64,000 bases of DNA. Origin: Bacteroidia bacterium. GTDB taxonomy: Bacteria > Bacteroidota > Bacteroidia > J057. Under the pieces are notes generated by a model. It was not told the DNA's origin. It worked only from the letters and a program-made list of their open reading frames with translations, and searched no databases. The DNA lies in NCBI GenBank assembly GCA_030430575.1, contig JAUIKF010000049.1, forward strand, positions 1 to 64,000, read 5' to 3'. Every line of letters begins with the position of its first letter. Positions within the stretch are counted from its first letter, which is position 1. The position numbers were made by a program, and so were the translations under genes. This document shows, one piece after another, positions 3,760 to 10,319 of the stretch.

Positions 3760-3944
3760 ATGAAATGGGCGTGGGCAGCCTGCCCTGAGACTTCGGCGTG
3801 AGCTCAGTCGAACGCATTGCCGAAGGGACGGATAGAAGCGTTGGCATTGGTTGGCCCGTTTCGATTCCTGTCCTGAGCCGTCGCCCTGAGCTTGCCGAAG
3901 GGGCAGTCGAAGAATTTTGGTTACTTTTTTCTAAAAAAAGTAAC
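3760..3944 (-). repeat. Dispersed palindromic element, copy A (inverted)
   Basis: The right end is a 25-bp palindrome (GTTACTTTTTT...AAAAAAGTAAC, 3920-3944). To its left are segments rich in cttcggc/ctgagc motifs. Read on the minus strand it aligns with 7404-7520, including the stretch CGAAACGGGCCAACC versus cgaagcgagccaacc. The two copies are inverted relative to each other and flank the TonB receptor and the HmuY-like lipoprotein. Confidence 0.75.
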
Positions 3945-3983
3945 ATAACAAGAGAAAAAATAAGGCTAGAGAAACATAGCATT

Positions 3984-6047
3984 TTGAAAAAACTATTTTC
4001 AGCTATCAAAAAACACATCCTGTGGGGAGCACTCATGCTCCTTGCAGGATTTCCTGCTTTTGCTCAAACCCAATCTCAGGACTCGATCAATCAGACAGAC
4101 CTGGAGACGATTGTCATCACGGGACAGCATAGTGCCGTCAAGGCGGATCAGTCTACGTATCGGGTACAGATTCTGGATAAAAAGCAATGGGAAGCCCAAG
4201 GGGCCAATAATCTGGCCGATATCATGTCGGCTCAGTTGGGAGTGAATACCTTTGAAGATCCAGTCCTAGGCACAAGTGTGCAGATGCTCGGTACTTCAGG
4301 ACAAAGTGTGAAGATCATGATCGATGGCGTGCCGATGATCGGGCGCCAGGACGGGGAGCTGGACCTGAGTCAGATACAGCTTGACCAGATCGAGCGGATC
4401 GAGGTGATCGAAGGCCCCATGGCCGTGGAGTACGGCGCCAATGCCTTGGCAGGGGTGATCAATCTGATCACACGCAAAGAGAGCAAGCACCCTTGGGAAG
4501 CGCAGCTTTCCATCTATGAAGGAACGGCCCAGTCCTTTCCACAATATGGACGCAGCGAAGGGACTCACCGCTATCATGGAAATGTGGCATGGCGGAAGGG
4601 ACGCCATTCCCTTCAATTGAGCGGCGGACGCGCCTATTTTGGGGGCATTCGCACCGATAAAGCGAACCGCTTTCGAAGCTGGAGTCCCAAGCGACAAGTG
4701 AATGCCACTGCCAATTATGGGTATGCAGGCAAAAAATGGCGATTACAAGCCGGAAGCTCCGTCTTTGATGAGCGACTGATACGAATGGATTCTGCATCGG
4801 GCATTTATGTGCCGAGGGCAAGAGACGAACGGTACGATACACGTCGGCAATTGCACCAAGTTTCAATTAATTATCAACCCTCCAAGCGATTGCATTACCA
4901 AACGACGGCTGCCTATACGGCGTATCGTCGCCTCAAAAACACTTTTCAGGTAGACCTTGTCACCTTGGAAAAGCTGCAAGTGGAAGGCGGAGCGACGACG
5001 GAGTCTTTTGATGCCAAGAGCTGGCGTGGCCAGCTTTCATGGAAGGTGAAGCCCAATCATCTCTCGCTGCAAGCGGGTTATGACTTGCGCATGGACCGAG
5101 CGTGGGGAGACAAGGTGCTTGATGGTCAACAAGGGATGAATGATTATGCGTTTTTTGCTTCTGCAGAATACAAACCCACCAAAAGCATCACCTTCCGCCC
5201 TGGTCTGAGAGCAGCTATTAATTCTACTTATCCATCACCGATTACCCCTTCTATTCACCTGAAAATCAATCCATTTCCCTATTGGACGTTTCGCTTATCC
5301 TATGCAGAAGGCTTTCGTGCGCCTAGTTTGAAGGAGCTGTTTTTAGAGTTTATCGATGTTAACCACCACATCATCGGCAATCCCAATTTGCGTCCAGAAA
5401 CGTCCCGAAACATGCAGGCTTCTGCGAATTGGAAGAAATTAATCGGCAGACAGTTGGTGGCTGTGGAATTGTCGGGATTTTATAATAGGGTCAATGACCA
5501 GATTTCCCTAAGTGCAACTGGCGACAACCAATTCATTTTTTCCTATATCAACATCGACAAACACCGCAGTCTGGGCACTCAGCTCAAGCTACGCTACCGC
5601 AAGGGCAGTCTGCAAGCGCAGGCAGGTGCTGCTGTGATAGGCCGTTATAATGACCTCAATGGCTTTGAGTCTGAGCTTACGACCCAATTTAACTACGCCC
5701 TCAATACGACAGCTCAGCTGGATTATGTCTGGAAGCAGCCACGGCTGTCTTTCTCCGTGAATTACAAATACGCTGGGCCTGTGGAAGGCTTCACCAATAT
5801 CGGCGATCTCGATGCACCTGAGATCATCCCCACCCGCATCGGCGGCTATCAGCTCGCCAATGTATCAGTGGGCCGCACGTGGTTCGACGATGTCCTCAGC
5901 CTGCGACTAGGCATGCGCAATGCCTTCAACGTCACGGACGTCGCAGCTACCGCGCGGAGCTCCGCGCACAGCGGAGGAAGCGGCCAAGCATCGATTGGGA
6001 TGGGGAGGAGCGTGTTTTTGAGGGTGGATATACGGATGAAGAAGTAG
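3984..6047 (+). CDS. TonB-dependent outer-membrane receptor (HmuR-like)
   Basis: I place the start at TTG 3984, giving about 687 aa. It opens a good signal peptide (KKLFSAIKKHILWG ... FPAFAQ). The longer upstream frame runs through repeat DNA and is unlikely to be coding. After the signal comes a TonB-box-like LETIVITGQ segment. The plug domain follows (VKIMIDGVPMIGR, IERIEVIEGPMAVEYGANAL, GVINLITRK), then a 22-strand-type barrel with FRLSYAEGFRAPSLKELF and a final strand ending in FLRVDIRMKK. Such receptors import haem, iron chelates or other scarce ligands using TonB energy. HmuY-like genes on both sides argue for haem. The ATG at residue 17 of this frame is an alternative start. Confidence 0.9.
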   Translation: MKKLFSAIKKHILWGALMLLAGFPAFAQTQSQDSINQTDLETIVITGQHSAVKADQSTYRVQILDKKQWEAQGANNLADIMSAQLGVNTFEDPVLGTSVQMLGTSGQSVKIMIDGVPMIGRQDGELDLSQIQLDQIERIEVIEGPMAVEYGANALAGVINLITRKESKHPWEAQLSIYEGTAQSFPQYGRSEGTHRYHGNVAWRKGRHSLQLSGGRAYFGGIRTDKANRFRSWSPKRQVNATANYGYAGKKWRLQAGSSVFDERLIRMDSASGIYVPRARDERYDTRRQLHQVSINYQPSKRLHYQTTAAYTAYRRLKNTFQVDLVTLEKLQVEGGATTESFDAKSWRGQLSWKVKPNHLSLQAGYDLRMDRAWGDKVLDGQQGMNDYAFFASAEYKPTKSITFRPGLRAAINSTYPSPITPSIHLKINPFPYWTFRLSYAEGFRAPSLKELFLEFIDVNHHIIGNPNLRPETSRNMQASANWKKLIGRQLVAVELSGFYNRVNDQISLSATGDNQFIFSYINIDKHRSLGTQLKLRYRKGSLQAQAGAAVIGRYNDLNGFESELTTQFNYALNTTAQLDYVWKQPRLSFSVNYKYAGPVEGFTNIGDLDAPEIIPTRIGGYQLANVSVGRTWFDDVLSLRLGMRNAFNVTDVAATARSSAHSGGSGQASIGMGRSVFLRVDIRMKK

Positions 6048-6271: not shown

Positions 6272-7294
6272 ATGCATATAAAAGTATTAACATCAATAAT
6301 CGCAGTATTGCTCCTCTGCAGCTGCTTCCCTGAAGATACGCCGCTACCCCCCTACGAAGCAGACGCCTCGGTCCAGCAGCTTCAGATTCCCATGGCGACG
6401 TATGATGACGTGTTGAATGAATACACCTATAAGCATTATTTCTACCTCGATTTAAAGACGGGGACGATGCAACAAGCGGAACGCGCCAGTTGGGATTTGG
6501 GCTTTGAGACCTCCGCTGAAGGGTATCGCATTATTCTCAATACTGCTAACTATATGCAGGCCACCAACCTCGGCCCTGTGCCGTTCGACACGACCTTAAC
6601 AGAGGCAGGCGTCAAGAACTTGACCTATGAATTTGACGACCCGTCGGGGGCATGGGAGCGCAGCGCGATAGGAGAGTGGTGGGACCCCACCAAGGCGGAA
6701 GCCACAGGCGACGTATACGTCATCAACCGTGGCTACGGCCCCAGCGCCAACCTCCTGGGCTATATGAAAGTCATGTTTGAATCAGTGAACGAAACCAGTT
6801 TTCGCTTTCGATATGCCAGCCTGGATGGCTCCTTTTCCCAAACGACGACCATTACCAAAGATCCCCTCTATAACTTCAGCTTTTTCTCCTTGGATTCGGG
6901 CGAAAAAGTACAAGTACAACCGCCCAAAACCGATTGGGACATCAGTTTTTCCTATTTCTCCTACCGCTACCCAGACGGATTCCCTTACTGGCTGAGTGGG
7001 GTTCTCAACAATCGCTACCAAGTGAAAGCGGCATTTGTACAGGACACGACCATTCTATTTGAGGAACTCACACTCGCTGACACCAGTCAGGTGGAGTTTA
7101 CCACAGATTTGGACGAGATTGGATTTCAGTGGAAAGCGTACCTTTTTGGACCTCCAGCACGCTATGTGACCTATTCGTACAAGAGCTATTTTGTGCGCGA
7201 TACGGAAGGGTATTATTACAAATTACGCTTCCTGGATTTCTACAATGATCAGGGAATCAGGGGCTTTCCTACGATGGAGTATGTGCGGTTGTAG
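6272..7294 (+). CDS. HmuY-like lipoprotein
   Basis: The 340-aa protein starts with a lipoprotein signal whose lipobox is LLLCSC near residues 14-18, so it should be lipid-anchored. Two HmuY-type blocks are visible: ASWDLGFETSAEGYRIILN near residue 73 and TDWDISFSYFSYRYPDGFPYW near residue 217. The layout parallels the secreted paralogue at 2456 but lacks the T9SS tail. The likely role is a surface haem-binding partner of the preceding TonB receptor, 224 bp upstream, with REP remnants in the gap. Having one secreted and one lipid-anchored HmuY-like protein in the same locus is plausible for capture and delivery of ligand; the division of labour is an inference. Confidence 0.82.
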   Translation: MHIKVLTSIIAVLLLCSCFPEDTPLPPYEADASVQQLQIPMATYDDVLNEYTYKHYFYLDLKTGTMQQAERASWDLGFETSAEGYRIILNTANYMQATNLGPVPFDTTLTEAGVKNLTYEFDDPSGAWERSAIGEWWDPTKAEATGDVYVINRGYGPSANLLGYMKVMFESVNETSFRFRYASLDGSFSQTTTITKDPLYNFSFFSLDSGEKVQVQPPKTDWDISFSYFSYRYPDGFPYWLSGVLNNRYQVKAAFVQDTTILFEELTLADTSQVEFTTDLDEIGFQWKAYLFGPPARYVTYSYKSYFVRDTEGYYYKLRFLDFYNDQGIRGFPTMEYVRL

Positions 7295-8270: not shown

Positions 8271-8463
8271 CTGTCATTTCGACCCTTGCCCTGAGCCAAG
8301 CCGAAGGGAGGGAGAAATCTAACTATGTGGTCTAGTAGCCTATTCGAGGCCTGTGGAACCCATAATGGATAACCAAAACAAAAGGGCATGTTGGATTTCT
8401 CCTCCCTTCCCTTCGGCAGGCTCAGGGCAATGCGCAAAGCCTCAGGTCGTCGAAATGACCTCT
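8271..8463. repeat. Long inverted-repeat element
   Basis: The left arm (catttcgacccttgccctga at 8271 on) and right arm (ending tcgtcgaaatgacc) are inverted. Both contain cttcggc/ccctgagc motifs, and about 75 bp of unrelated sequence lies between them. Together with short flanks this fills the 318-bp gap 8208-8525, where I see no credible gene. A short minus-strand open frame inside it is repeat translation. Confidence 0.75.
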
Positions 8464-8525: not shown

Positions 8526-8711
8526 TTAAACATCTTCCAGATCATAAGGAACAGTATTCCCTTCATCTAGCTGGGCAATAGACTCGAATAACCTCTTTCT
8601 GTTAGCTTTCGTGGATAATAAATGGGCGGTTTCTTGGGAAGAATTGTTTCCCAAAAAGGGCAAGTAAGCTTTCACTTTTGCAACGAGGGAAGAGAGGGCT
8701 ACGGGCTTCAT
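8526..8711 (-). CDS. Small antitoxin-like protein without a toxin partner
   Basis: The 61-aa protein has a C-terminal [17 protein letters not shown]...DLE segment that recalls the tail of RelB/YefM/Phd-like type II antitoxins (NKERLLESI-QLNEGK...). Such antitoxins normally precede a toxin gene by a few bases. Here the sequence downstream on the same strand (8525 to 8256) is a dispersed inverted repeat with no toxin-like frame. It may be an orphan antitoxin or a remnant. It ends about 60 bp downstream of the Fic gene on the same strand, so the two could be co-transcribed. The assignment rests on a weak motif. Confidence 0.5.
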
Positions 8712-8771: not shown

Positions 8772-9845
8772 CTACCGCTGAATCAGCAACTCATAAAGCG
8801 GAATATTGACATAATAATTCGCCGCGCCTAGTTTTTGCTTCTTGAGCAGGCCATCTGCTGCTAATTGGTTGAGGTAGCTGGCAGCTGTAGGGCGAGATAT
8901 GTGTAGGTCCTTTGCGAGGAATTCGATTCTGGTATAGGGATGTTTAAACAAATTATTGAGCAAATCTTGGCTATAGAACTTATAGTTATCTCTGAGTCTG
9001 TGCTTGATCAGTTGCATCATATCTTTGATAGCAAGAACTAGTTTAATCGTCTCCCTCGAAGTCATTTCCACCCCTTTAATCATATACATCAACCATTCTT
9101 CCCAATTTTCGTCTGTCCTCACTTCTTGTAACAATCGATAATAATCTGCTTTATTCTTGATAATATAATTACTCAAATAAAGAATGGGCAATTCTAATAA
9201 TCCATTAAGAATCAAGTATAAAATATTGATAATGCGGCCTGTACGTCCATTTCCATCATAGAATGGGTGGATGCTTTCAAATTGATAATGGATAATGGCC
9301 ATTTTGACTAATGGATCAAAATCACTGATCGAGGGATCATTTATATACCGCTCAAGATTGGACATCAATCGGGCGATCGTGTCATAATCTTGGGGAGGGG
9401 TATAGATTGTTTCTCCCGTAATCGAGTTTTTCAAGGCGGTTCCAGGAAGTTTTCTAAAGCCTGCTTTATTCTGCTCTAAAGTCTCTTGAATCTCTAATAC
9501 AATACTATTGGTCAATATTTCCCTTTCCTTGATTCTCGCATGGCCTTTCTTTAGCGCTGAAATATAGTTTTGAACTTCTTTGGCAGCAAGCGACCCCAAA
9601 GCACTAAGATTCAGTTCAGATTTATAGAGATCATCATGAGTAGTTATAATGTTCTCTATGGCAGAACTGTCTTTGGCTTCTTGTATGCCGAGCGTATTGA
9701 TCAATATATTTTGATTGGGAATCGAGGCGGCTATTCCCTTTAACTCTGCTAGGGCAGCATGGGCGCTTGGAAGGCTTTTGAGGATAGGTTTAGTTTCAAC
9801 ATCAATCCTAAGCGGAAGTTCTTTGAGGACCCAATTTTTTTCCAT
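8772..9845 (-). CDS. Fic-family AMPylase with C-terminal winged helix
   Basis: The 357-aa protein has the full Fic active-site motif HPFYDGNGRTGR at about residues 192-203, with the catalytic His and the GNGR phosphate-binding loop intact. An N-terminal SSAIEN at about residues 59-64 matches the inhibitory-helix motif (S/T)xxxE(G/N) of class II Fic proteins, so the enzyme is probably self-inhibited. Residues ~300-357 form a winged helix-turn-helix (RIEFLAKDLHISRPTAASYLNQL). Fic enzymes transfer AMP from ATP to a protein hydroxyl. The wHTH predicts DNA binding, and four palindromic repeats lie directly upstream (9870-9998), which suggests autoregulation. The target is unknown. Confidence 0.95.
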   Translation of the reverse strand: MEKNWVLKELPLRIDVETKPILKSLPSAHAALAELKGIAASIPNQNILINTLGIQEAKDSSAIENIITTHDDLYKSELNLSALGSLAAKEVQNYISALKKGHARIKEREILTNSIVLEIQETLEQNKAGFRKLPGTALKNSITGETIYTPPQDYDTIARLMSNLERYINDPSISDFDPLVKMAIIHYQFESIHPFYDGNGRTGRIINILYLILNGLLELPILYLSNYIIKNKADYYRLLQEVRTDENWEEWLMYMIKGVEMTSRETIKLVLAIKDMMQLIKHRLRDNYKFYSQDLLNNLFKHPYTRIEFLAKDLHISRPTAASYLNQLAADGLLKKQKLGAANYYVNIPLYELLIQR

Positions 9846-9869
9846 TTTTAGGAGATAAGAAATGATGAT

Positions 9870-9998
9870 TTCCTTTACATAAAGGAATCATACTGTAAAG
9901 AAAATGCAATTTTCTTTATATAGCAAGGCTCTATTGTAAAGAAAATGCCATTTTCTTTACAATAGAATGCCAGCCTATAAAGAAAACCCGATTTCTTT
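9870..9998. promoter_or_regulatory. Four-site palindromic operator array upstream of fic
   Basis: Four inverted repeats of the type TAAAGAAAAnnnnnTTTTCTTTA lie at 9870-9887, 9896-9918, 9930-9966 (perfect over 37 bp) and 9979-9998. Their centres are 28, 41 and 40 bp apart, the last two close to four helical turns. They occupy the promoter region of the Fic-wHTH gene and are the natural candidates for its own binding sites. Confidence 0.75.
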
Positions 9999-10319
9999 TA
10001 CACATACCCGCCGCCAAAAACGTTTTGAGTTTCGAGGATAACCCCACCTACCAAATGGTCAAGAGGATGCGGATTGAACGGATTCAGCGGATGTAAGCGG
10101 ATCAGAAAAGAGTCCCCTAGTGTTCTTTCAATTTAGAAAGGTGGAGTTGAAAGTCATTTACTATTCTCAGCTTTCGATAAGTCCAAATAACTAACAAGAA
10201 ATAAAAAAGTGAAAAGGGAAGAAAAAATTAGCTATCCGTGACGGAGAAATACTTTTGACTTCCTTGTTCCTTGTTTTTTATTTTTACTTTACCTGACAAT
10301 TCAATCTTGAATAAACACT
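9999..10319. other. Non-coding gap
   Basis: I see no gene here. The stretch holds a short run of related hexamers (cggattgaacggattcagcg, then gatgtaagcggat) around 10069-10101 and otherwise AT-rich spacer. Confidence 0.6.

Follow-up and report, generated by a model that had tools for sequence, protein, structure and literature searches.

Judged by its sequence, the product of the gene at positions 8772 to 9845 (minus strand) of the window, the whole stretch of 64,000 nucleotides analyzed here, is a class II Fic AMPylase that is intact and belongs to the SoFic antiphage family. The gene and the palindrome array in its promoter very probably form a circuit of cooperative autorepression, in which the synthesis of a toxic AMPylase would be held down by the enzyme's own winged helix. 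An earlier sequence-only reading of the window had proposed autoregulation by the protein's own DNA-binding domain, and the comparison of genomes lends strong support to this proposal. Sites that are private to one promoter, a layout that is conserved in about 110 genomes, and the covariation of the sites with the recognition helix together favor binding by the protein itself over a host regulator or a mobile repeat. We infer DNA binding, repression, and an antiphage role for this protein.

A SoFic-like class II Fic AMPylase

The gene and the parts of its product are as follows.

8772 to 9845, minus strand: SoFic-like class II Fic AMPylase gene with a C-terminal winged helix (open reading frame of 357 amino acids, ATG at 9845)
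9651 to 9668, minus strand: inhibitory-helix motif SSAIEN, residues 60 to 65 (S60 xxx E64 N65), from the sequence
9234 to 9269, minus strand: Fic active-site motif HPFYDGNGRTGR, residues 193 to 204, from the sequence
8808 to 8969, minus strand: winged-helix domain, residues 293 to 346, from the secondary structure of the AlphaFold2 model and the Pfam domain SoFic-like_C (residues 279 to 349)
8856 to 8894, minus strand: recognition helix, residues 318 to 330, from the AlphaFold2 model and covariation with the operator

Class II Fic proteins are defined by an HPFx[DE]GN[GK]R active site and an N-terminal [ST]xxxE[GN] helix, and the 357-amino-acid protein carries this motif pair in the form of HPFYDGNGRTGR and SSAIEN. 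Both the intact Fic active site and the inhibitory motif that had been read from the sequence were confirmed by the alignment of 48 homologues, in which S60, S61, E64, and N65 are invariant and the residues of HPFYDGNGRTGR are mostly invariant or nearly so. The Pfam domains Fic_N, Fic, and SoFic-like_C were each detected above their curated cut-offs, with the last scoring 68.6 bits against a cut-off of 27, and the PADLOC SoFic model matches residues 7 to 354 (E = 1.5e-119). The score against the NCBIfam equivalog model NF046030 is 378 bits, below the cut-off of 550, and the protein is therefore regarded as a SoFic homologue and not as an equivalog with the same function. The winged helix, also named in that reading, is found both by Pfam and in the AlphaFold2 model (mean pLDDT of 80.6; alignment built without plasmid sequences), which places the recognition helix at residues 318 to 330 and the wing at residues 335 to 346. 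This model superposes on the SoFic structures 3zcn and 3eqx over its full length in the fold search, and Shewanella SoFic is the closest solved structure by sequence search and by fold search alike.

Four operator palindromes in a 41-bp register

The promoter contains four related palindromes, numbered from the start codon outward.

9853 to 9879: operator palindrome 1, nearest to the start codon, TGTAAAG and degenerate AGATAAG, TGTAAAGGAAATCATCATTTCTTATCT (identified by its place in the 41-bp register)
9894 to 9920: operator palindrome 2, TATAAAG and TGTAAAG (repeat search and register score)
9930 to 9966: operator palindrome 3, core 9935 to 9961, perfect over 37 bp (18+1+18; repeat search and register score)
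9976 to 10002: operator palindrome 4, TGTAAAA and TATAAAG (repeat search and register score)

Read along the gene strand, the 27-bp units are TGTAAAAGAAATCGGGTTTTCTTTATA, TGTAAAGAAAATGGCATTTTCTTTACA, TATAAAGAAAATTGCATTTTCTTTACA, and TGTAAAGGAAATCATCATTTCTTATCT, spaced exactly 41 bp apart. The near-helical spacing and the perfect 37-bp palindrome noticed earlier both hold. The claim of four related palindromes stands in number, with the placement of one of them corrected. The candidate TTTCCTTTACATAAAGGAA (9869 to 9888), which is probably the fourth palindrome of the sequence-only reading in a slightly misplaced form, is out of the 41-bp register and was rejected, and the in-register site is TGTAAAGGAAATCATCATTTCTTATCT, composed of one good and one weak half-site. 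Three such sites were observed in the 64-kb window, compared with one in the best of 100 shuffles. With a position matrix derived from the half-sites of orthologues, the four-palindrome register scored 104.9 at this promoter and 34.2 at the runner-up position in the 64-kb window. Cooperativity is suggested by a single property of the array, its strict 41-bp register.

Conservation of the lattice in relatives

The comparison included 80 orthologues (69 to 75% identity), which come from Bacteroidota plus a small number of other phyla, and more distant homologues taken both from whole genomes and from plasmids, with the homologue searches covering one genome per species. The same array with the same spacing precedes the orthologous genes of about 110 close relatives, where the half-site is TGTAWAG. 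In 92 of the 107 relatives with at least 56% identity, the 180 bp upstream of the gene contain four or more half-sites, compared with 2 of 107 downstream. The 107 close homologues together have 182 inward half-site pairs with a span of 27 bp and 130 outward spacings of 21 bp, and the distance between palindrome centers is 41 bp in 78 of 99 cases. These spacings of 27, 21, and 41 bp mean that successive half-sites, 20 or 21 bp apart, point in opposite directions and that this step of about two DNA turns puts them all on one face. Span-27 palindromes were found upstream of 81% of the near and 63% of the far (<55% identity) homologues, compared with 6 to 7% inside genes. A clear array is absent in several of the distant homologues.

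In Bacteroidota, the −7 promoter box has the consensus TAnnTTTG. This box was recognized in 64 of 83 near homologues, and its final TG doubles as the opening two bases of a half-site in 65 of 68 boxes (downstream control, 6 of 83); none was recognizable in the window's own promoter. In the orthologues, a protein bound to the half-site over the −7 box should block RNA polymerase. Intergenic, near-perfect inverted repeats are also what a mobile palindromic element, a transcription terminator, or an RNA hairpin array would look like. Such an origin is extremely improbable here, as neither a repeat of the array nor a second copy of its promoter occurs elsewhere in the 8.16-Mb genome, the 27- and 41-bp spacings are kept while the sequence changes, distant homologues also prefer odd-span palindromes, and the palindromes of the orthologues overlap the promoter box and the start codon.

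Uniqueness in the genome and absence of a wider regulon

The genome of 8.16 Mb has a single exact copy of the 27-bp palindrome TGTAWAG-N13-CTWTACA, at the fic promoter, and TAAAGAAAA-N0-12-TTTTCTTTA is restricted to two sites of this promoter in the whole genome. In a search of 60 relatives, TGTAWAG-N13-CTWTACA was found in nine genomes, at fic promoters or, a few exceptions aside, as isolated matches that lack the inner A/T tracts when away from fic. A wider regulon was considered and rejected, because matches away from fic genes in the 60 relatives and 26 fic-bearing genomes are few and mostly without inner A/T tracts. Widespread occurrence of these palindromes at unrelated genes would have counted against the sequence-only reading, and the check for it was negative.

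Ordinary repressors often act at promoters with several palindromes, and those seen here might accordingly be the sites of some unrelated transcription factor of the host, with fic as one of its targets among others. This explanation appears very unlikely, given a site that is private to one promoter in the genome. In addition, these half-sites also stand upstream of homologues in other phyla, whose host factors are different; TGTAWAG lies in front of homologues on Psychrobacter and Sphingobium plasmids (gamma- and alphaproteobacterial, respectively), so that a regulator common to these hosts is unlikely. The covariation of the site sequence with the Fic recognition helix, described below, also speaks against a host factor.

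One of the exceptions among the matches away from fic is in a sister species (G001), which has a two-palindrome SoFic-type array at C46:37702-37728 without an adjacent fic gene and a broken SoFic gene elsewhere (C71:141782-142611). The array may be left over from a lost fic gene, or it may now control a TonB-receptor gene. Around this array are also motifs similar to an inverted repeat of the window, CCCTGAGCCAAGCCGAAGGGAGGGAGAAATC ... TCTCCTCCCTTCCCTTCGGCAGGCTCAGGG (8285 to 8440), which is a REP-like intergenic element.

Operator sequence follows the recognition helix

In homologues with <55% identity, the palindromic layout is similar and the half-site word varies by clade.

SRxTA-type helix: half-site TGTAWAG
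AKRQTA helix: half-site TGTCGA
KTxG helix: half-site GGGTAA or GGGCAA
KTWQTA helix: half-site TTAGAGG
SRTTxTK helix: half-site TGTCCA
YAENTA helix: half-site TTAATGT or TTAAGGT
RQTAxRYLD helix: half-site ATGTTA
SRSTAIRYL helix: half-site AAGTCAAA

By clade counts, the table of helix type against half-site is almost diagonal, with the weakness that the words were picked after viewing the data. An unbiased scan, which is free of this weakness, compared operator similarity with identity in each 16-residue window across 113 dereplicated homologues after the removal of core identity. The top window of the whole protein is residues 316 to 331, the recognition helix, with a partial r of 0.224 (0.126 for the second window); these window correlations are modest, and operator similarity owes much to relatedness (partial r of 0.38 for the core). 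Among 315 residues, S317 ranks first, P319 third, and T320 ninth in covariation with the operator. By both the scan and the clade table, site specificity follows the Fic protein's own recognition helix.

Gene neighborhood and other Fic genes

No neighboring gene is shared by more than six fic loci, and the homologues are located on plasmids and close to integrases, restriction genes, and toxin-antitoxin genes. The operator moves with the gene, which is what a self-contained module should show. A conserved gene for an AS1-like antitoxin was not found next to fic, and the locus thus lacks the second gene that defines a two-gene toxin-antitoxin system. A 61-amino-acid open reading frame (8526 to 8711, minus strand), 60 bp downstream of fic, has a weak Phd/YefM match (E = 0.009) below the cut-off and has no toxin partner. 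It was rejected as an antitoxin partner of fic on account of this weak match and because no relative of it lies beside other fic genes; it is possibly an orphan antitoxin remnant. On the other strand, a TonB-dependent receptor-like open reading frame (3798 to 6047, plus strand; identified by eye) is followed by an HmuY-family lipoprotein gene (6272 to 7294, plus strand; Pfam), and the two probably constitute a heme uptake locus adjoining fic.

The genome contains eight Fic genes. Among the other long, tailed ones, three have their own, different upstream inverted repeats and one has direct repeats, e.g., TTTAAGTAAATTGCAATTTACTTAAA, and TGAGCCGATTAGCATAATTAATCGGCTCA adjoining TATATTTG; no upstream repeats were found at three Fic genes of the same genome that have no C-terminal tail. 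This suggests that one cell contains several Fic circuits, each self-regulated and private with respect to the others. Across 23 Fic genes of nine genomes, an upstream palindrome (p < 0.07) was found at 9 of 15 genes with a tail of 144 to 170 residues, compared with 0 of 8 without one, a comparison that is exploratory, given the small set and a threshold chosen after the fact. The helix-turn-helix in these tails is confirmed by Pfam in some of them only.

A proposed single-gene circuit

The locus very probably represents a SoFic-family module in which one gene encodes an AMPylase that represses its own synthesis. The N-terminal Fic part would be a potentially toxic AMP-transferase restrained by its own inhibitory helix, and dimers would dock onto inverted TGTAWAG half-sites through their C-terminal winged helices. 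Owing to the 20/21-bp repeat of half-sites, the four palindromes would face one side of the DNA and could be filled cooperatively. Protein bound at the −7 box would block RNA polymerase and keep its own level low, and the loss of the protein or its titration off the array would raise synthesis. Autorepression through an operator array is apparently general in the SoFic family.

DNA binding may instead serve chiefly as an activity switch, in which binding to the operator, or to DNA in general, shifts the enzyme between AMPylation and deAMPylation, with transcriptional repression in second place. There is precedent for this in CbFic2 of Coxiella burnetii, a distant relative that is activated and dimerized by DNA via its C-terminal helix-turn-helix (PMC10628234), and the toxicity of EcSofic requires an interaction between its C-terminal domain and its AMPylase domain (PMC12249575). 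We consider such a switch a rather unlikely main function, since the sites lie on the gene's own −7 box and start region in the orthologues, which is the position of a repressor, and since a general DNA effect needs no sequence-specific private operators. DNA control of enzyme activity as in CbFic2 is possible, by analogy, alongside the favored autorepression. A bolder and unlikely extension is that the operator array serves as an antitoxin made of DNA, with promoter-parked SoFic being inactive or deAMPylating, and that the loss or degradation of host DNA during phage attack would free the enzyme and derepress the gene at once. If this were true, sensing, synthesis, and toxicity would be coupled in one gene.

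Comparison with known systems

Class II enzymes are described as making up about 80% of all Fic proteins, and their control is largely unknown (PMC9755527). SoFic is a toxin of phage defense, neither its off-state nor its trigger has been solved (PMC12249575), and as of 2023 its DNA binding had not been demonstrated experimentally (PMC10628234). SoFic and EcSofic (3eqx and 3zcn) have the same domain order and full-length fold as the window protein and are about 40% identical to it when the structures are aligned. They are dimeric, autoinhibited, and toxic on expression (PMC12249575), and an operator or self-repression is unreported for them; no report of a SoFic operator was found in a search of the open-access literature. 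A small antitoxin, AS1, is encoded downstream of EcSofic (PMC12249575) and has no conserved counterpart at the window locus. CbFic2, like the window protein, is a class II Fic with a C-terminal helix-turn-helix, and it binds DNA; random DNA was used in that study, in which DNA governed activity and dimerization and no operator was identified (PMC10628234).

The closest precedent for the regulation is CccR of Yersinia pseudotuberculosis, a proven autorepressor that acts via promoter palindromes (PMC9755527). Like the window protein, CccR is a class II Fic enzyme with a C-terminal DNA-binding domain and inverted repeats in its own promoter, and its self-repression requires dimerization (PMC9755527). 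Unlike the window protein, it is a secreted type VI effector, and its sites are one pair of 10-bp boxes with a 26-bp spacer (PMC9755527), a 10 bp-N26-10 bp geometry that is not found in the window array with its 27-bp palindromes and 41-bp period. The sequence match to 7xux, a Fic structure that was released with the same paper and is probably CccR, is also far weaker (E = 1e-11) than that to SoFic (E = 1e-79). A family-wide operator matched to the recognition helix provides a defined DNA for studies of binding, repression, phage induction, and the control of AMPylation, and the natural pairs of matched regulators and operators may reveal how winged helices shift their specificity. Relative to the CccR precedent, what stands out here is the apparent generality across the SoFic family and the matching of the operators to the recognition helix.
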